A stretch of DNA of 64,000 nt, from the NCBI RefSeq assembly GCF_000737845.1, contig NZ_ATLK01000001.1, positions 434,001-498,000 on the forward strand, given 5' to 3'. Below the pieces are notes generated by a model. It ran no database searches. It was given only the letters and a program-made list of their open reading frames with translations, and had not been told where the DNA came from. The position numbers and the translations under genes were made by a program. Every line of letters begins with the position of its first letter. Positions within the stretch are counted from its first letter, which is position 1. Source of the stretch: Bifidobacterium bombi DSM 19703. GTDB lineage: Bacteria > Actinomycetota > Actinomycetes > Actinomycetales > Bifidobacteriaceae. Positions 6,284 to 33,226 of this stretch are shown here, in pieces.

Positions 6284-6833
6284 CATACAGGAAGAAATAG
6301 ACCACGAACTCATTCCCCATGAGCGGATTATGGGGCGCATACAGGAAGTCGCCGCGGAGGTGAGCAGAGATTACAAGGAACGTTACCCGTTGCTCGTAGG
6401 AGTGCTCAAAGGGGCCGTCAATGTCATGGTTGCCTTTTCGCAGGCTTTGAGCATTCCGGTTGAGATGGATTTCATGAGCCTTTCCAGCTATGGATCCGGT
6501 GTCAGAAGCCAGGGTGAGATCACTGTCAGGCAGGATCTATCTACGGATGTCGAAGGGCGTGACGTCCTTATCGTCGAAGACATCATCGATTCGGGACTGA
6601 CCTTGGACTGGTTGAAAAGGGAACTCCGGCGCCGTGGTGCGGCCTCGGTTGAGGTTTTTGCCCTTTTGGAGAAGCCTGAGCGCAGGGAAGTGGACGTGGA
6701 CGTGAAGTATAAAGGTTTCGAGGTTCCTGATGTATTCGTAGTTGGTTTCGGCCTTGATTATGCGGAAAGGTTCCGCAATCTAGATTCCATCGCCGTTTTG
6801 AAGGCATCGGTATACGAAGGAGAACACGCATGA
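6261..6833 (+). CDS. hpt: Hypoxanthine phosphoribosyltransferase
   Basis: About 190 residues. It salvages hypoxanthine and guanine with PRPP to IMP and GMP. The PRPP loop is [14 protein letters not shown]; the pyrophosphate loop is [11 protein letters not shown]-terminal [10 protein letters not shown] is the base-binding end. The family starts close to the sequence MRIADIQ, so either ATG 6261 or ATG 6270 is right; neither has a clear ribosome site and both lie inside the end of tilS, pointing to translational coupling. Its stop overlaps ftsH (ATGA). The order tilS-hpt-ftsH is a classical bacterial arrangement. Confidence 0.95.
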
Positions 6834-9193
6834 GCAACACTCAACCGCCGATGGGCTCACCCAACGGCAATCTAGGTCCCGGTAGGGATCCCCGTCAAGG
6901 CAATAACCCATTCGGTCGCAACAGTGTAGGCGGCGGACCGGGCAACCAGGGCAAGCGGTCTTGGTGGCAGTCGCCTTGGGTCTGGGTCTCGGCGCTCGTC
7001 GTGCTTGCGCTTATCGGCATGCAGATGTTCATGGGTTCCGGCTCGCAGAATATCGATACGCGTGACGGCATGAACTTGTTGTACGGAGCGGTGAAGACCG
7101 ACGGTTCGGTGAACGCGGACCGCGCGGACAAAAGCGTCTTGCCTTACCGTGGAGTGTTCATGAACCCTTCGGGTGGCAAGAACGACAGCAAATCGAAATC
7201 GGATGCGCAGGATTCCGGCAAAGGCAAATCCGACGATTCCGATAAGTCCGATAAGTCCGACGAACAGAACAAATCGGAGAAGTCGGATGCCACAGGAGCG
7301 CGTACCGGCGTGCAGGACGGAGAGGCATCCGGCCGTGCCACCAATGCCGCCCAGAAACTCGACATGAACGGATATGTTTCGGTCGAGCGTGCGACCGTCG
7401 TCGACAACGGGCAGCAGGTGAAGCTCAAGCTGAGCGATGATTTCATCAAGAAGGATCCGAAGACCGGTAAGCCCCACATATATGGGCGAGACGTGCAGTT
7501 CTACTACACTCAGGCTCAGGAGACGCAGGTCGTTGAGGCTGTACGTATGGCGCAGCCCAAAGACGGTTGGAACACCGAGATCGCTTCGGACAGCATCTGG
7601 ACCACCCTGCTCATCCAGTTTCTCCCGTTGGTGCTGTTTATTGCGCTGATGTACTGGATGTTCAGCAAGATGTCGAACACCGGAGCCGGCATGTTCGGCA
7701 TGGGCGGCAATAAGAACAACGGGAAGTTGCTGGAAGGGGAAACGCCTACCACCAAATTCTCCGATGTCGCCGGAGAGCAGTCAGCGGTCGAGGAGGTCGA
7801 GGAGATCAAGGACTTCCTCAAAGACCCATCGAAATACAATGCGTTGGGCGCCAGGATTCCACGGGGCGTGCTGCTCTACGGTCCTCCGGGAACCGGCAAG
7901 ACGTTGCTTGCACGCGCCATCGCGGGTGAGGCCGGTGTGCCGTTCTATGCCATGGCAGGTTCCGACTTCGTAGAGATGTTCGTAGGTCTGGGTGCTTCGC
8001 GTGTTCGTGACTTGTTCGAAGAGGCGAAGAAGAACGCCCCCGCCATCATCTTCATCGATGAGATCGACGCGGTGGGCCGTAAACGCGGCTCGGGCATGAA
8101 TGGCGGGCATGACGAGCGTGAGCAGACGCTTAACCAGCTTCTTGTTGAGATGGACGGCTTCGACAACAACACGAACCTCATCATCATCGCCGCGACAAAC
8201 CGTCCGGATGTGCTCGATTCGGCGTTGTTGCGCCCAGGCCGTTTCGACCGGCAGGTGGCGGTCGAGGCGCCTGATCTTGAGGGACGTGAGGCGATTCTTA
8301 AGGTACATGCGAAAGGTAAGCCGTTCGTGCCCGATGTGGATCTGCATACCGTCGCCGTACGCACCCCGGGATTCACGGGGGCTGACCTTGCCAACGTGCT
8401 CAACGAGGCTGCCTTACTCTGCGCAAGGGCGGGCGCTCAGCTCATTGACAACCGTGCGATTGATGAGGCCATCGACCGAGTCCAGGCCGGACCGCGGCGC
8501 CAATCACGTGGTATGGCGCTTGAGGAGATGCGCAACACTGCGTATCACGAAGGCGGTCACGCCATGGTTGCAGCAGCGTTGCACTACACCGACCCGGTTA
8601 CTAAGGTGACGATTCTGCCGCGTGGACAGGCATTGGGTTATACGGCTGTTCTGCCAACTTCTGACCGATATTCGCAGTCGCGTTTCCAGCTGCTTGACCA
8701 GATGGCCTATGCCATGGGTGGGCGCACCGCGGAGGAGGTTGTCTTCCATGACCCCACCACCGGCGCATCGAACGACATCGAAAAGGCGACGAAAATTGCG
8801 CGTACGATGGTCATGGAATACGGACTCTCCTCGACGCTCGGGGCGGTCAAATGGGGTGCGGCCGAGCCTGATGGCGAATCGGTGGATGCATTCTCGCACA
8901 AGTATTCGGAGAAGACCGGAGAGATCATTGATGAGGAAGTGCGCAGCCTCGTTGAAACCGCTCATACGGAAGCGTGGAGAATCATCAGTGACAATAGGGA
9001 TATCCTTGATGAGCTTGTCCGTCAGCTCCTTGTAAAAGAGACCTTAAACGAGAAGGAACTTGCAGAAATATTCAAGGATCTGCGTAAAGCTCCTGAACGT
9101 GACCTTTGGCTTTCTGACCCGAAGCGTTTTGACTCAGATGTGCCGCCGGTCGAAATTCCTGAGTCACTGAAGAAGTCCATGGAAGAGAAGTAG
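6830..9193 (+). CDS. ftsH: ATP-dependent zinc metalloprotease FtsH
   Basis: 787 residues, membrane-anchored AAA protease for quality control of membrane and short-lived proteins. A Gly/Asn-rich cytosolic N-terminus precedes the first membrane segment (about residues 45-68); an extracytoplasmic region carries a Ser/Asp/Lys-rich low-complexity insert (about residues 115-155); the second membrane segment is near residues 260-282. Walker A GPPGTGKT is at 351-358, Walker [10 protein letters not shown] follows, and the zinc motif HEGGH is at 573-577. The protein is longer than the about 650 residues of E. coli FtsH because of the N-terminal region and insert. Translationally coupled to hpt. Confidence 0.97.
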
Positions 9194-26790: not shown

Positions 26791-27426
26791 TCATGCCTCG
26801 CCTCGTCTCTCACGTCCTGATGCAAAGCGGTCGAGAGCCCCTGTTTTGGCGAGCGCCGTGTACAGGTACCAGCTCATGATCCCCGCTATGCAGATACCTG
26901 AGATGATCTCGCATATCATGTGGATGATTCCGCGGGGGCTCAACAGCGCGACGCCCTGGAATTGGAAGAACAAGGCGTACAGTCCGTATTCCAATGCCGT
27001 CAATCCTCCCGATGTGACGCACAGGAACAGGTTGAACCGTCGATAGCGTGAGAGCAGGAAGGGAAGCTCGCTGAACAGAGCCTGGATGAGGGCGGAGGCG
27101 AAGACGAACCCGAATGAGTAGTTGTTGCCGAACAGCATCTCCGTGCAGCTGCCGACAAGGTTCACATAGAGCGCGGCTCCAGGCTTGCGGATGATGATCA
27201 GTGCGAGCGGGCCTGAAAAATACCAGAAGCCATGCAGCAGGCTCGCGATGCCGGGAAGTATGGCACGAAGCAGTGGGGAAAGCGCGGCATACGCGAAGTT
27301 GAAGCCCCAGAAGAACACGCCGCAGGTCACGCCGAGCGCGGCCCCCAAGGCGATGTCCACGGGCCTCCAGCGTAGGCGGCCGTAGTGGGTTGGATAAGAC
27401 GGTTGCTTTTCATCGATTGTGCCCAA
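26791..27426 (-). CDS. ykoE: YkoE family ECF transporter S component
   Basis: 211 residues with five to six membrane segments. The pattern matches YkoE, the substrate-binding subunit of the thiamine/hydroxymethylpyrimidine ECF importer: RWRPVDIALGAALGVTCGVFFW, HGFWYFSGPLALIIIRKPGAALYVNLVGS, GNNYSFGFVFASALIQALFSELPF and CVTSGGLTALEYGLY. It needs an ATPase pair (YkoD) and a T subunit (YkoC); neither is found near it, so it may use a shared module elsewhere. Start is TTG 27426 with GAGGAC upstream; a hairpin (27443-27489) precedes it. No TPP riboswitch motif was seen. Confidence 0.85.
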   Translation of the reverse strand: MGTIDEKQPSYPTHYGRLRWRPVDIALGAALGVTCGVFFWGFNFAYAALSPLLRAILPGIASLLHGFWYFSGPLALIIIRKPGAALYVNLVGSCTEMLFGNNYSFGFVFASALIQALFSELPFLLSRYRRFNLFLCVTSGGLTALEYGLYALFFQFQGVALLSPRGIIHMICEIISGICIAGIMSWYLYTALAKTGALDRFASGRERRGEA

Positions 27427-27442
27427 GGGGTCCTCGTTTTCA

Positions 27443-27489
27443 GCTGCGCACGGTCTGTGTCCGAATGATGCCCCCTTGACCTGCGCAGC
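27443..27489 (-). repeat. Hairpin in the ykoE 5' region
   Basis: GCTGCGCA and TGCGCAGC, eight bases each, loop of about 31, ending 17 bases before the TTG start and just ahead of its ribosome site. It could fold in the leader mRNA and modulate ykoE. It lacks the sequence marks of a TPP riboswitch. Confidence 0.4.
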
Positions 27490-28038
27490 CCGGGCGGAGG
27501 CATCGTTGCCACTGTAGCAGATGCGGATTCAATGTGCCTTGTTTCTTCACAGGATGGTAATCGAACCATGACGAATCGGGCCTCGAGCCCGGAGGAAATC
27601 TGGTTTCCTTGTGCGAAACAGGGAAAACCGGCATCACCATTCACCATTGTGATAGTTCAGCCGTCATCAGGATTCGAACAAATGTTCGATTCGTTGTTTT
27701 AAGTTCCGTCTGGTTGGTTCCGTCTCTATCGCCGCATTGCCACGGTCCCGTCCCTATTCGGGACCTGCGACTCTGGAGGTTTCCCCGGTGGTGTCTTGCG
27801 GTGACATCTGGGGGTGCGGGACCGACATGCACCCTGAAAAGCCCTGAGGACGAAAAGACTTTCGGCACATGTCGGGTCAATTTCGCTGATGCCATAATGG
27901 CACTATCAGGACGCTGAGACAGAGGCGAGTGTTGGATCCGTATGGTGACGGCCATGGTGTGGCTTTGATTCGACGCACCCATGAGCCAAGCCGTGGTTCC
28001 AGGCAAGGTTCGGCCTTGTCGCAGGTCAGGGATGCAGG
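27490..28038. other. Gene-free stretch, possible eroded coding DNA
   Basis: No frame looks like a real gene. A run of 38 codons ending at a TGA (28039-28041), from about 27929, precedes the ABC ATPase stub by 13 bases and could be the tail of a lost gene; the translation (beginning VLDPYGDGHGVALIRR) matches nothing I recognise. A short hairpin CGGGC/GCCCG is near 27577-27591. Confidence 0.4.
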
Positions 28039-28054
28039 ATGAACAGGAGATGCG

Positions 28055-28165
28055 ATGAAAGAACCGCCATTGGTGCTCGATGATGTCTCGTACCGGTATA
28101 ACGCCACTGATACCGGCGGAATCACTGGCGTGAACTTACGCTGCGAAGTCACAGGATCCTCCTAA
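28055..28165 (+). pseudogene. Truncated ABC transporter ATPase, N-terminal stub
   Basis: 36 codons with an AGGAGA ribosome site. The translation KEPPLVLDDVSYRYNATD followed by GITGVNLRCEVTG is the beginning of an ABC ATPase (first strand and the strand before Walker A), then TAA. Walker A and everything after it are missing. A few bases on, a different frame continues as the interior of an FtsX-like permease, so a deletion has probably joined the two genes. Confidence 0.6.
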
Positions 28166-28169
28166 ACGT

Positions 28170-29072
28170 GTGCGCCCGCTCAGGGTGGCCATGGGCGTGG
28201 TGTTGCTTGCAGGGGCGCTGTGCATGCTCGTCATTCCTGCATTGGCCACGGGAAAGCTGAACCCCGGTGATTTCGTGTCGCATGGCAACAGGGAAAGCCC
28301 GCTGGAAAGCAAGGTCACCGGCTTCATCGGATTTTCGGTAGGGGGCATGTTTCTCATGGTCTTCGCATTGGCTGTCCTCGCGCCATATGTCACGCATTGG
28401 TTCACCAAGGGATGGACTCACGTGCTCGCCGTGCCCTCCACAGCGTGGAGGCTCGCCAGGCAACAGTCCGTGGGAAGGATACAGCGGCAGAACGCAACGA
28501 TCATCCCCATGACCGCTGGACTGTGCCTGCTGATGACGTTCTCCGGTGTGCTGCATACTCTGGCTGACAGTCTGAAAGGATTCGCCGGTCGCGGCGGCAT
28601 GAACGTGAACCCGCACATGCTGACCAATCTGATGGCCATGCTCGGACCCGCCATCGTCATTGCATTGGTCGGGGCGATAAGCGGTCTGCTGATCACGTCG
28701 CGGGCACGAAGCCTAGATTTGGCTCTGACATATGTGTCAGGAGCCGAGGTTGGCCAGTTGCGACTGCTGGGAGCCCTTGACGGTGTCATCACCATGGTCA
28801 CGTCCGTGTTGCTTGCGTTCGTCATCACGCTGTTGAGCACCGCAGGAACGGCCCTGATGTTGAAACGATACCTAGGCAGTGCAAAACTTAGCGTCCAGTG
28901 GGGCTATTGGGCAATCATCATCGTCCTTGCCGTGGCTGCGGGTACCGTCGCCACGGGTGTGCAGGCGTTGTCCACGCGATTCGACGATTCCTTGATAATC
29001 ATTTCGCATGCGATCGGGGGAGTAAGACCCCCGGAAGGATTGAACGAATCACTGGGTGCTCCACGGCTTTGA
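28170..29072 (+). pseudogene. FtsX-like ABC permease, C-terminal part
   Basis: 300 codons from a GTG without a ribosome site. About six membrane segments (VAMGVVLLAGALCMLVIP; GFIGFSVGGMFLMVFALAV; NATIIPMTAGLCLLMTFSG; LGPAIVIALVGAISGLL; VITMVTSVLLAFVITLL; WAIIIVLAVAAGTVAT) with the FtsX-type stretch SRARSLDLALTYVSGAEVGQLRLLGALDG. That looks like the second half of an 800-residue MacB-type permease; the N-terminal half with its large outer domain is gone. The frame runs open a dozen codons upstream of the GTG, into the deletion junction. It may be non-functional. The ABC ATPase 170 bases downstream could be its former partner. Confidence 0.6.
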
Positions 29073-29240
29073 GGAATAGACCATTGCATTGTTCGATGTA
29101 GCTGCTTAGTTCCCTATATTTGGGAGGCTGCGTCACATGGTTGCGGCTAACGCCGAGGATGATGTGAATGAGGTTTGCGGGATATCGAACACAGGTTCAG
29201 AATAATCGTATGAATATCGTATAGATACAAGGAGTAAACA

Positions 29241-30029
29241 ATGAAAACAAGACAAACGACGTTGGATAGCGGCGACGTGCTCCGAGCTCAGGGAGTGGTC
29301 CGTAGCAAAGGCCGCTTCACGCTCGGCCCGGTGAATCTGACTTTGCACGAGGGGGAGATAATGGCCGTGGTCGGAGCGTCCGGCTGTGGCAAGTCCTCGT
29401 TGCTCAGGGCCATGGCCGGCATGGTGAAGCTGGATCGTGGATCCGTCGTTTTCGAAGACAGGCGTCTGGACAAGCTTGGCGAGGCCGCGCTCGCCTCATT
29501 GCGTAGCTCGCAATTCGCGTTCATCTTCCAGGACTACATGCTGCTTGAAAACCTGAGCATCGCCGAAAACGTGGCATTGCCGGCGGCCGTGAGGGGAGAA
29601 AGGATGGAGATGGATCGCATACGACGCTCTGTTGCGTGTGTCGGTTTGCAGGAGAAGGCTCTGGACACTCCGGTCACGAACCTGTCCGGAGGCCAGCAGC
29701 AGCGCGTGGCCATCGCCCGTGCGCTCGCCATAGGCGCGCAGGTGCTTTTCGCGGACGAGCCCACGGGCAACCTTGACCCCAAGTCACGCGACGATGTCGT
29801 ATCGACGATTCGTACGTCCATGAACGCCGGTCTTCGTTCGGTTCTGATTGTGGCGCACGATCCGGTGGTGGCCGCCGCGGCCGATCGCATCGTGTTCATG
29901 CAGGACGGTCGCATCGTGCGCGAGTTTCCCCAAGGGTTGCAGACACGACAAGTCGAGGAGCTTCTGCTGGGCCGAGCTCCCGCACGGCCGCAGACGTTCG
30001 GCGGAGCAAGGCCGGTGATGTCAAGATGA
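29241..30029 (+). CDS. ABC transporter ATP-binding protein, MacB/LolD type
   Basis: 262 residues with a complete cassette: Walker A GASGCGKSSLL, Q-loop FIFQDYMLLENL, signature [15 protein letters not shown], Walker B VLFADEPTGNLD and H-loop LIVAHDPV. Family members power FtsX-like permeases that export lipoproteins or antimicrobial peptides. AAGGAG lies seven bases before the ATG; the 170 bases upstream contain an AT-rich segment that could hold its own promoter. The only permease nearby (28170-29072) looks truncated, so its partner may be broken or elsewhere. Confidence 0.9.
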   Translation: MKTRQTTLDSGDVLRAQGVVRSKGRFTLGPVNLTLHEGEIMAVVGASGCGKSSLLRAMAGMVKLDRGSVVFEDRRLDKLGEAALASLRSSQFAFIFQDYMLLENLSIAENVALPAAVRGERMEMDRIRRSVACVGLQEKALDTPVTNLSGGQQQRVAIARALAIGAQVLFADEPTGNLDPKSRDDVVSTIRTSMNAGLRSVLIVAHDPVVAAAADRIVFMQDGRIVREFPQGLQTRQVEELLLGRAPARPQTFGGARPVMSR

Positions 30030-30111
30030 CGGAAGACAGGAATCTTCATCGTTCGACGGACAAAGTGAGCCCATCCCCGAGTTCTGGCGTATCGCAATCT
30101 CCGGTACCGAC

Positions 30112-31092
30112 CTATGTGAGAACGGAGAAGTTGAGGATGAGCGGCTTCCAGGTAGTTTCGGCTCTGTGGCGCGGGAGCAGAGGATTGCAGGTGCTGGGTG
30201 GGGCCGCCATGCGTTCGATGGTCGTCCGGTCAAGACGCTGGCCGAATGCCGTGGGGCTTAACGCACGTGCCATCTGCCTTACTTCAGTGAGCGATTCCCT
30301 GGTGATGTCGTCCGCACGGGCAATGGAACTCCTGATGGCATCAAAGTCGGGATTCGACCTGTCAGCGCAGGTCTCTCCATGCGCCTTTCCGTGCGCTGCT
30401 GCCACGCCGCCGGCCTCGGCGTTTTTCGACTCTTCCACGTGATTGAGCATCCTCAGCGCCGACTCGTGTGCATAATGGACGGCGGAAAGCTGCTGTCCGA
30501 GCGAATCGTGCATCTCCGAAGCCATGCGTGCCCGTTCGCGCGACAGCGTCAGGGATTCGATGGTATGCATGTCGTCTTCGAGTTTTTCGTTGGCTTGCTG
30601 CAGTTTCGTGTTCTGTGAAGTGAACACCATGAATACGATTCCTGCAAACAGCACGTACAATGAGGCGATTTTGAACTCGCCGGAACGATATGAGGAAAGC
30701 ATATTCAGTATTGGGGAGATCGTCCAGATCACGCAGGCCGAGATGAGGATGGTCACATAGCCGAATACCTCGTTGAACAGCAAGGATGCCTCTGCTATCA
30801 CGATGTACGTCAGCAGATGCCCACCGTGGCGAAGATACGGCGCGGCCCATATGCATGTCGCAATGAGCAGCAGTGCCGCAGCCCTCTGCGAGAGCAGGTT
30901 CGGAAGTTTGCGCATGGCTATATACAGTCCGATTATGAGCGCCGGTTGCAAGAGGAGCAAGGCGAAATTGCCCACATACGCCGAATCCGGAATGATGAAG
31001 ACGAAGCCCAGTATGAACATCATGCTGGCGTAGTTCGGGAACCTTCGCGCCGGCGTATCCCAGTCCGTCCTTGCCTGTGTCCTGATGCTCAT
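30112..31092 (-). pseudogene. Truncated sensor histidine kinase without ATPase domain
   Basis: 326 codons from ATG 31092. Five to six membrane segments (residues about 18-175), a short coiled coil, then a HisKA_3 dimerisation helix with the phospho-accepting His (ERARMASEMHDSLGQQLSA) and a second helix ESLTEVRQMARALSP. It then ends after about 40 unrelated residues, with no N box or G box, and no response regulator follows. Only 82 bases separate its stop from the convergent ABC ATPase, so the kinase domain was probably deleted. It may be dead or a decoy. Longer starts up to 31251 overlap the divergent gene. Confidence 0.65.
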
Positions 31093-31099
31093 ATATAGA

Positions 31100-31105
31100 A
31101 CTATA
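31100..31105 (-). promoter_or_regulatory. -10 element (TATAGT), likely leaderless start of the kinase gene
   Basis: On the minus strand TATAGT ends eight bases before ATG 31092, and there is no ribosome site. That geometry fits a transcript starting at the ATG. No good -35 is seen. Confidence 0.4.
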
Positions 31106-31145
31106 CCGTTTGCCGAGAGAGACCATACCGCATGGGATGGATTCG

Positions 31146-31151
31146 TATAGT
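31146..31151 (+). promoter_or_regulatory. -10 element (TATAGT), likely leaderless start of the Tag-Nudix gene
   Basis: TATAGT ends nine bases before ATG 31160, again with no convincing ribosome site, mirroring the divergent gene. Confidence 0.4.
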
Positions 31152-31159
31152 ATGGAGAC

Positions 31160-32236
31160 ATGATCGAGCCGAATCCACAATCCGCAGAACCGTCGGTAGT
31201 GCACTGCGAGGAAGGCGATGTCGAGGCAGTGCCTGGACAACGCAGTATCATCGTCGGTGCGGACGGCGTGGCGCGTTGCTGGTGGGCGTATACAAGCCCG
31301 CTGCAACGGCGTGACCATGACGAGGTATGGGGAGCGCCTTGTTATGACGGTGATGAACTGTTTGCCAGGCTTTGCCTTGAGTGCTTGCAGGCGGGGCTCT
31401 CATGGAGCTCGATCCTGAGGAAGCAACGTCGCCTGCGCGAGGTGTTCCATTACTTCAGGCCCTACGCCGTGGCTCGGATGGAGCCCGAGATTCTCTCCCT
31501 GCTTCAGGATGCGGGCATCATACGCAACAGGCGCAAGATCGAGGCGATCGTCGCAAATGCGCAGCTTGTCGTGGACCTGCAGGAAGCCGGCGTTCCATTC
31601 GCCGATTACCTCTGGCAGATGGTAGGCGGCAAGCCGCTGCTGCGCCGCCCCGCCTCATCGAAGGACGTGCCCGACACCGATTTGACGGCAACTCTTATGA
31701 GCACAAGGCTGCGCAAGGACGGCTTCAGATTCGTCGGGCCGACCGTCGCATACGCGTTCATGCAGGCCTCGGGCATGGTGAACGACCATCTTGCCGGATG
31801 CTTCAGGGCTGTGCGGAATCCGGAGAAATGCGAGCACTGCGCCGGAGGAATGGTCTTCGACGAGTTCGGCCGAGTGGCGCTTATCGGCCGTGAGCTTCCC
31901 GAAGGCGGTTATGAATGGTGCCTGCCGAAGGGGCATATGGAGAACGATGAAACACCTCAGGACACTGCCGTTCGTGAGGTGTACGAGGAAACGGGCATAC
32001 TCGGAGAAGTGACCCGTGAAGTCGCTGTGGTCGACCACCGGTTCGAATGGGAGGGACACATCGTCCATAAGTTCATCACGCATTTCGCTCTGCGTCGAAT
32101 CAGCGGAGAACTCAACGCCTCAAACGATCCAGACCATGAGGCGCAGCTTGTGCGATGGGTTCCGTTGCGCGATCTGGAGGCGACGCTCACGCATCGCACG
32201 GACCAGGAGGTCATTCGACGCTATATGACAGGCTGA
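31160..32236 (+). CDS. Fusion of 3-methyladenine DNA glycosylase I (Tag) and Nudix hydrolase
   Basis: 358 residues. Residues 36-216 are a complete Tag: RCWWAY with C40, H53 in DHDEVWG, catalytic Glu in CLECLQAGLSW (E74), DAGIIRNRRKIEAI, RKDGFRFVGPT, and MVNDHLAGC with H210 and C214, i.e. all four zinc ligands known from E. coli Tag. Residues 225-358 are a Nudix domain like the actinobacterial MutT4 group, with a perfect Nudix box G258...E264...REVYEETGI (272-280). A CEHC pair bridges the two. It may remove N3-methyladenine and clean or hydrolyse a nucleotide. The stop overlaps the convergent PHP gene by 16 bases. Confidence 0.9.
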   Translation: MIEPNPQSAEPSVVHCEEGDVEAVPGQRSIIVGADGVARCWWAYTSPLQRRDHDEVWGAPCYDGDELFARLCLECLQAGLSWSSILRKQRRLREVFHYFRPYAVARMEPEILSLLQDAGIIRNRRKIEAIVANAQLVVDLQEAGVPFADYLWQMVGGKPLLRRPASSKDVPDTDLTATLMSTRLRKDGFRFVGPTVAYAFMQASGMVNDHLAGCFRAVRNPEKCEHCAGGMVFDEFGRVALIGRELPEGGYEWCLPKGHMENDETPQDTAVREVYEETGILGEVTREVAVVDHRFEWEGHIVHKFITHFALRRISGELNASNDPDHEAQLVRWVPLRDLEATLTHRTDQEVIRRYMTG

Positions 32237-33012
32237 AGCTGAGACGATCCGTCGCAGTGGAAACGAACGTACTTGGTTTTGCCGTGCGTTGCGCACAGGG
32301 CACTGGCTTCGGGCCAGTGGGAATGCCAGTCCTTGGCATAATGGCAGTCCGATCCCAATGTGATGGGCAGTGCGTGGTGTTCCTCCAAAGCCTCAAGCAG
32401 GAGTTCGTAGAAGTCGAGGTTGTGGTATTTGAACATGCTTTTGGTGTTGATCTCCACAGCCAGTCCGAGAGCCTGGCATGAGTCGAGGATCGCATGGATC
32501 TCTTCCGAAAACTCGTCGAAGACGTAGGCGGCGTCGATATGTCGATATCTGAAAGGGTAGTCCAGGTGGGACAGTATCCGGCAATGCCGTCCCAGAGCGC
32601 CGATCGCCTCCTGGACCCGTGAGAAGTAGCGTGCGCAGAAGTCATGTCGGTCGTACCTGCTCGTGCTGTTCCCGAGGAGCGCGAAATCCGTGCCCTCGTC
32701 CTGATGGATGCTCAGCAGGGCCACGGCGTTCGGGAACTCATCCAACAGGGGAAGGAACCGGCTGAGGCAGTCTGGCGCGTAGCCCAGCTCCATTCCCATG
32801 ACGAATTCGATTCCAAGCTCCTCTGCCAGCTCCTGGCCTTGGCTATGCAGCGCTGCGAAATCAGGTATGTCATCGCGACCTTCATGTGCCGAATTGCATA
32901 ATTCCACATGCTCGCTCGTCATCAGCACTCGGTTGTCGAAGTCCGCATACGATTTCAAATCTGCCTGCGAGTCGAACGAATACAGGCTGTGCACATGCTG
33001 GTCGACGATCAT
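32221..33012 (-). CDS. PHP-domain phosphoesterase, histidinol-phosphatase type
   Basis: 263 residues. The PHP metal motifs are present: DQHVHSLYSFDS (HxH), SEHVEL, GMELGY, LSIHQDEG, LSHLDYPFRY, and GSDCHYAKD. Members of this branch hydrolyse L-histidinol phosphate, but the family is broad, and no other his gene is nearby, so the substrate is uncertain. ATG 33012 has AAAGGAG six bases ahead; the 13-codon longer reading lacks one. Its 3' end overlaps the Tag-Nudix gene. Confidence 0.85.
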   Translation of the reverse strand: MIVDQHVHSLYSFDSQADLKSYADFDNRVLMTSEHVELCNSAHEGRDDIPDFAALHSQGQELAEELGIEFVMGMELGYAPDCLSRFLPLLDEFPNAVALLSIHQDEGTDFALLGNSTSRYDRHDFCARYFSRVQEAIGALGRHCRILSHLDYPFRYRHIDAAYVFDEFSEEIHAILDSCQALGLAVEINTKSMFKYHNLDFYELLLEALEEHHALPITLGSDCHYAKDWHSHWPEASALCATHGKTKYVRFHCDGSSQLQPVI

Positions 33013-33117
33013 GATGGCTCCTTTGCTGGGTGTGCGATGCGACGAAATCATAGCACCAGGGCAAGTGCGTATGCATGGTACGGGGTTTCACCGTCAGGTC
33101 AATCGACATGGCCGTGC

Positions 33118-33145
33118 TTGACACGTCAGCGCACAGGGATATACT
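33118..33145 (+). promoter_or_regulatory. Sigma-70-like promoter of rpmE
   Basis: TTGACA (33118-33123) and TATACT (33140-33145) with a 16-base spacer, 82 bases before rpmE. This is the best promoter match in the window and suits a highly expressed ribosomal protein gene. Confidence 0.75.
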
Positions 33146-33226
33146 GGCACACTGTAAGTTCCGGTTCACGTCCGGCCATTTGTCTGGTCAGGCGACCCGG
33201 GTCACCTGAATTCCTTAGGAGACATC

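Follow-up and report, generated by a model that had tools for sequence, protein, structure and literature searches.

Whether one gene of Bifidobacterium bombi DSM 19703, a strain described as coming from the bumblebee digestive tract (PMC5540593), joins a Tag 3-methyladenine glycosylase to a Nudix hydrolase, and what such a protein would do, is the question raised by this locus. The window analysed is a 64,000-nucleotide stretch (contig NZ_ATLK01000001.1, positions 434,001 to 498,000), to which all coordinates refer. The domain fusion is real: a single stop-free frame runs from ATG 31160 to the stop at 32236, and, as the original prediction had it, both domains lie in this frame, each above its Pfam cut-off. 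The short linker with a CEHC pair, also predicted, measures about 11 residues, and CEHC occupies a place where bifidobacterial MutT4 proteins mostly have REYS in the alignment; in the AlphaFold2 model pLDDT is below 50 across residues 216-262, CEHC included. The gene may truly start at GTG 31229 (codon 24), which pairs better with the Shine-Dalgarno-binding tail of 16S rRNA than ATG 31160 does (-6.0 versus -2.4 kcal/mol; rpmE and the ABC ATPase gene reach -7.3 and -7.8), although the test is weak because the two candidate starts of prfA themselves score merely -3.4 and -5.9. A separate Nudix product from an internal start was judged unlikely, since the best of the in-frame starts examined near the junction (31760-31874) reaches just -3.8 kcal/mol. 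GC content by codon position is coding-like in both halves (0.65/0.46/0.73 in Tag and 0.70/0.40/0.65 in Nudix).

Features of the fusion gene and its convergent neighbour (window coordinates; E. coli Tag numbering for replaced residues)
Feature	Position	Strand	Evidence or remark
Tag-Nudix fusion gene	31160..32236	+	358 codons; possible alternative start GTG 31229
Cys40, zinc-snap ligand (E. coli C4)	31277..31279	+	Tag alignment
Tag / Adenine_glyco domain (PF03352), residues 42-216	31283..31807	+	205.2 bits, AlphaFold2, VIA-align
Asp52 replacing Tyr16 (Y in 61/61 other Tags), then zinc ligand His53	31313..31318	+	alignment
Val56 replacing Glu20 (E in 61/61 other Tags)	31325..31327	+	alignment
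Ala69 replacing Glu33 (E in 61/61 other Tags)	31364..31366	+	alignment
Glu74, Glu38 equivalent (E in 60/61 other Tags)	31379..31381	+	alignment
Gln89 replacing Arg53 (R in 61/61 other Tags)	31424..31426	+	alignment
Zinc ligands His210 (first codon; E. coli H175) and Cys214 (last codon; C179)	31787..31801	+	alignment
Linker, residues 217-227, ending in CEHC (224-227)	31808..31840	+	Pfam borders, MutT4 alignment
MutT4-type Nudix domain (PF00293), residues 228-354	31841..32221	+	72 bits; bifidobacterial MutT4 alignment
Nudix box, residues 258-280	31931..31999	+	every canonical position present
PHP-domain protein, convergent neighbour	32221..33051	-	3' ends overlap by 16 bases

The first half of the protein has the Tag fold. 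Its PF03352 match covers profile positions 1-176 of 177 far above the cut-off (205.2 versus 25 bits, E 9.1e-61), seven Tag chains make up its sequence matches in the PDB, and it is 43% identical to E. coli Tag. The AlphaFold2 model has block means of mostly 85-98 pLDDT over residues 61-200, with 64 at residues 161-170, and superposes on TAG 2ofk with a VIA-align Z of 25.0 and an rmsd of 1.6 over 181 residues. The TIGR00624 score of 191.1 bits lies under the cut-off of 232.5, but this cut-off does not discriminate here because three of the four standalone control Tags fall below it as well (220.3, 206.4 and 168.2, with L032 above at 256.9), and the low score was dropped as a sign of divergence. 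Residues Cys40, His53, His210 and Cys214 align with Cys4, His17, His175 and Cys179 of E. coli Tag, the zinc ligands; the equivalents of Glu38, the catalytic residue, and of Trp6, Trp21, Gln41 and Trp46 are retained too. The zinc snap of Tag is described in a review of extra glycosylase domains (PMC9266487). It is not universal, because the standalone Tags L042-L045 of one family (genomes G381, G227, G281 and G370) miss three ligands, having Thr or Ser, Tyr and Ser in place of Cys4, His17 and Cys179.

The Tag half had been predicted to be complete, with all four zinc ligands and the catalytic Glu; the ligands and the Glu38 equivalent are present, but completeness does not hold. Sixteen columns are invariant when the E. 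coli enzyme and 60 further distinct Tags are aligned, and four of these are changed in the fusion. A leave-one-out count over the 61 other Tags gave no loss in 58, one loss in one and two losses in two. A looser count, over columns at least 90% conserved in 33 Tags, fails to single out the fusion, since it departs at 7 of 51 columns and L053 at 8 of 52. One of the four changes touches Tyr16, which forms the base-recognition pair of Tag together with Glu38 and which has been proposed to help discriminate 3-methyladenine from adenine; with Glu38 kept and Tyr16 replaced by Asp52, the pair is not intact. In the Tag tree (34 rows) the fusion has the longest end branch, 0.99, and clusters with those of the Bifidobacterium genomes G102 and G079 (support 87/71). 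The Tag half appears altered or diverged, and its role may have changed, because four family-conserved residues are gone.

The second half was predicted to carry a complete Nudix box and to be MutT4-like, and the alignments agree on both points. PF00293 matches residues 228-354 above its cut-off (E 5.6e-20), and the box reads G258-x5-E264-x7-R272-E273-V274-x-E276-E277-x-G279-I280, following the published pattern GX5EX7REUXEEXGU (PMC11784022). The best PDB sequence match is 3i7u, named AP4A hydrolase. AlphaFold2 confidence is low throughout this half, with block means of 29-57 that rise to 67-70 in the last 18 residues alone. The alignment with MutT4 proteins starts at the AGG strand and spans the whole Nudix domain; identity is 47.3-54.3% to 31 Bifidobacteriaceae MutT4s over near-full matches, 60.6 and 61.5% to two further ones over 109 residues, and 42.3-47.2% to eight copies of other families. 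Among the 84 columns invariant in the 33 Bifidobacteriaceae MutT4s, 33 are changed in the fusion, and the changes are unevenly placed: two of 25 columns in core residues 252-282, limits that were picked after the alignment was seen, versus 31 of 59 elsewhere (Fisher p = 8.3e-5). None of the eight canonical box positions invariant in MutT4s is changed (hypergeometric p 0.015). The catalytic core has therefore been held while the remainder changed.

The Nudix half more likely stems from a bifidobacterial MutT4-type gene than from one of another family. In the Nudix tree (42 rows) the fused domain sits on the longest end branch, with 7.06 changes per column, and the AU test rejects neither descent from the mutT4 gene of the same genome (p 0.51) nor placement outside the Bifidobacteriaceae copies (p 0.46). 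Recent duplication of the resident mutT4 is consequently neither backed nor rejected by the tree; among the 33, the resident copy has the lowest identity, 47.3%, beside 47.2% for the nearest copy of another family. That standalone gene is flanked by pcnA-like (poly(A) polymerase), DUF6049 and murJ genes, an order that matches Rv3907c-Rv3910, Rv3908 being the actinobacterial MutT4 type. The fusion is not at this locus and lies upstream of rpmE-prfA. Mycobacterial MutT4 reportedly hydrolyses dATP better (PMC11784022); with 33 columns changed, the substrate of the fused domain is likely to differ. A PADLOC search for a defence role gave one match, PDC-S07, in the Nudix half (32.6 bits, E 1.2e-8) and none for the PHP neighbour; it was taken as generic Nudix similarity and the defence reading was set aside.

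We propose, and give it an even chance, that tag and a diverged MutT4-type Nudix domain were fused specifically in this lineage and that the hydrolase half is live and the glycosylase half altered. In the B. bombi lineage a tag gene would have acquired the Nudix domain from a MutT4-type gene, and the product would be a single two-domain protein. The Nudix half would work as a metal-dependent pyrophosphohydrolase that acts on a nucleotide or a similar compound. The Tag half would keep the DNA-binding HhH-type glycosylase fold; DNA binding is probably retained, and the bases that it excises may be different or fewer, or else it would chiefly be the partner that binds DNA. One protein of MutY-like layout would then clear damaged bases out of DNA and damaged nucleotides out of the pool, although any coupling of excision with hydrolysis is our inference. 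The intact joined frame, the preserved Nudix core, the kept zinc ligands and the Tag fold speak for this proposal; against it, the carrier is one genome only among those searched, the long branches of both halves would also suit relaxed constraint, genes close by may be decaying, the Nudix half is modelled with low confidence, and its tree allows more than one parent.

The intact Nudix box and, in Tag, the kept Glu38 and zinc ligands would also suit a protein whose halves both keep their ancestral activities, 3-methyladenine excision and MutT4-type hydrolysis, the fusion merely co-expressing two housekeeping enzymes. Such an arrangement is also consistent with PDB entry 4ai5, whose title names a TAG with the Y16F mutation complexed with 3-methyladenine, so that loss of the Tyr16 hydroxyl need not block base binding; the title of 4ai4 names an E38Q mutant TAG of S. 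aureus. Yet changes at four of the 16 invariant Tag columns exceed those of any of the 61 other Tags, and a fused Nudix domain doing the work of MutT4 is less likely because the standalone MutT4 persists while the fused copy is changed at 33 of 84 invariant columns. We regard retained ancestral activities as a minor possibility, the foremost among the alternatives.

The fusion had been noted as one of which no characterised example was known, and the titles and abstract openings of the papers listed from an open-access library yielded no description of a Tag-Nudix fusion; the word methyladenine is absent from the main text of a review of the Nudix clan (PMC5389931). Whole-protein searches were run against overlapping genome sets, with E cut-offs of 1e-3 for the genus, 1e-20 for the family, 1e-45 for the order, 1e-50 for the class and 1e-40 for the phylum. 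Among the matches listed, a stop-free match over both domains was found in the source genome only for the 112 genus genomes (weakest match 1.5e-7), and likewise a both-domain match in one of 189 family genomes (weakest 1e-39); the source genome was again the only one among 396 order, 394 class and 396 phylum genomes, 99 of the last having any match. In the listed matches, Tag is matched below 1e-45 in 17 further genus genomes, always ending at or before query residue 226, and nearly all carry the Nudix relative as a gene of its own. The fusion is apparently undescribed and, in the genomes sampled, apparently specific to one species. A scan of a collection of genome contigs with short peptide patterns, which detect close relatives alone, found two Nudix genes. 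In the listed family matches, genome G126 has two Tag matches of identical score 23 kb apart (C1:844400 and C1:867800).

Several candidate carriers were examined and rejected. In six order-level genomes (G381, G227, G281, G370, G291 and G367) Tag matches ran through stops to query residues 236-346; a tblastn search of these loci (L042-L047) with the Nudix half, made for Tag-Nudix neighbours, gave no match at E 1e-3, so the rows are run-ons. Three genus genomes with early-starting Nudix matches, G045 (query 159), G068 (187) and G072 (204), do not hold partial fusions either: the Tag half had no match in G045 and G068 and a chance-level match on the other strand in G072 (E 0.075). A mobile origin was rejected, as among the plasmid and phage records that gave a match (126 and 17) none covers 80% of the fusion protein at one place; a scan of viral contigs found nine Tag loci, and the Nudix scan none.

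The fusion gene lies between a histidine-kinase-like frame and the convergent PHP gene, upstream of rpmE and two genes that we take to be prfA and prmC. The kinase frame (30112-31251, minus strand) looks truncated, having HisKA_3 but no HATPase domain, and is separated by about 80 bases from the end of a convergent ABC ATPase gene; the latter is preceded by a membrane-protein-like frame (28170-29072, plus strand) that has no Pfam match at E 0.001 and is possibly a permease fragment. With a kinase that misses its ATPase domain and a permease frame that matches no Pfam family, the region may harbour decaying genes. About 10-11 kb around prfA were compared in seven relatives (G012, G024, G083, G087, G001, G079 and G049). 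The fusion, kinase and PHP frames have no match there at E 1e-12, and the ABC ATPase frame has matches in G024 only, about 8 kb off at 33% identity (E 1e-12). In three of the seven (G024, G083 and G049) a cobalt-permease-like gene is found on the strand of prfA, at most about 0.8 kb from the rpmE region; it is farther off in G087 and G079 and was not seen in that interval in G012 and G001. In the window, 5.8 kb separate it from rpmE, and it is on the opposite strand. The segment from this gene to rpmE (26791-33226) is rearranged relative to these relatives, and, because the neighbouring frames are unmatched and the permease gene displaced, the fusion is placed in a rearranged segment absent from all seven. 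The GC content around it is ordinary (0.56-0.61), and a search without a positive control gave no match to the PHP gene in 12 relatives.

Such surroundings raise the alternative that the gene is itself decaying, a chance fusion under weak selection whose frame is still open. The truncated kinase frame adjoins it, it occurs in a single species in the listed genus and family matches, and its halves have the longest branches of the Tag and Nudix trees, which may also fit relaxed constraint. The 358 stop-free codons and the coding-like codon-position GC of both halves are at odds with decay, as is the way in which the changes avoid the Nudix catalytic core, and we consider it unlikely.

Returning to the fusion with a live hydrolase and an altered glycosylase, its setting among the repair genes of the genome (1,895,239 bases in 4 contigs) is as follows. 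The only Tag match is the fusion itself, and the AlkD family has no match. Two HhH-GPD proteins are present, one above the Nth cut-off and the other, a MutY-type gene at L138 separate from the fusion, nearest MutY yet below its cut-off; six Nudix matches were found, the fusion included. With the HhH-GPD proteins being Nth and MutY only and no AlkD-family match, the fusion is the sole alkyl-base glycosylase found in the genome among the Tag, HhH-GPD and AlkD families.

Compared with known Tags (PF03352, TIGR00624; 2ofk, 2ofi, 1lmz, 4ai4 and 4ai5), the fusion shares the fold, the zinc-snap ligands, Glu38 and Trp46, and differs in the changed Tyr16, Glu20, Glu33 and Arg53 and in the added C-terminal Nudix domain; it is a natural Tag variant at Tyr16. 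With actinobacterial MutT4 it shares the Nudix box and a whole-domain alignment at 47-54% identity, whereas the changed invariant columns, the replacement of the MutT4 N-terminal region by Tag and the different locus set it apart. In Ada-AlkA, too, an alkyl-base glycosylase is fused to another alkylation-repair domain (PMC1839093), but there the partner is a regulatory domain and here a Nudix hydrolase. In layout the fusion resembles MutY/MUTYH, where an HhH-superfamily glycosylase precedes a MutT-related Nudix domain, which the review of extra glycosylase domains names on both (PMC9266487). Unlike MutY, the fusion has a Tag glycosylase in place of an HhH-GPD Fe-S one (no HhH-GPD match within the protein at E 0.001 in Pfam) and an intact Nudix box, and since the partners differ it would have arisen independently of MutY. 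That the Nudix domain might be a mere recognition module for Tag, hydrolysis having been lost, is improbable, for although the domain order is that of MutY, whose MutT-derived C-terminal domain reads 8-oxoguanine non-catalytically, and the Cys pair in the linker resembles the zinc linchpin formed by Cys residues in the MUTYH linker (PMC9266487), the canonical Nudix box is complete and the core is the best-kept part of the domain, in contrast to the Nudix-like domain of MutY, which that review calls non-catalytic.

What lends the proposed glycosylase-hydrolase fusion its wider interest is that MutY is the standard case of a glycosylase with a grafted MutT-type domain, non-catalytic there (PMC9266487), and a one-species graft with an intact hydrolase core offers a chance to test whether such proteins originate as two enzymes or with a recognition module. 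A bolder version, which we advance only tentatively and think rather doubtful, is that the fusion is an early second, independent invention of the MutY layout, its Tag pocket re-tuned by the Tyr16 to Asp replacement and the three other invariant changes to a lesion whose nucleotide feeds the live MutT4 domain; if so, one protein would clear the same damage from the nucleotide pool and from DNA.

Apart from the fusion, one phage record, MT836608.1 (Bacteriophage sp.), has a MutT4-like Nudix stretch at 6429-6842 that shares 43.5% identity with the fused domain; the record may be a bacterial contig.
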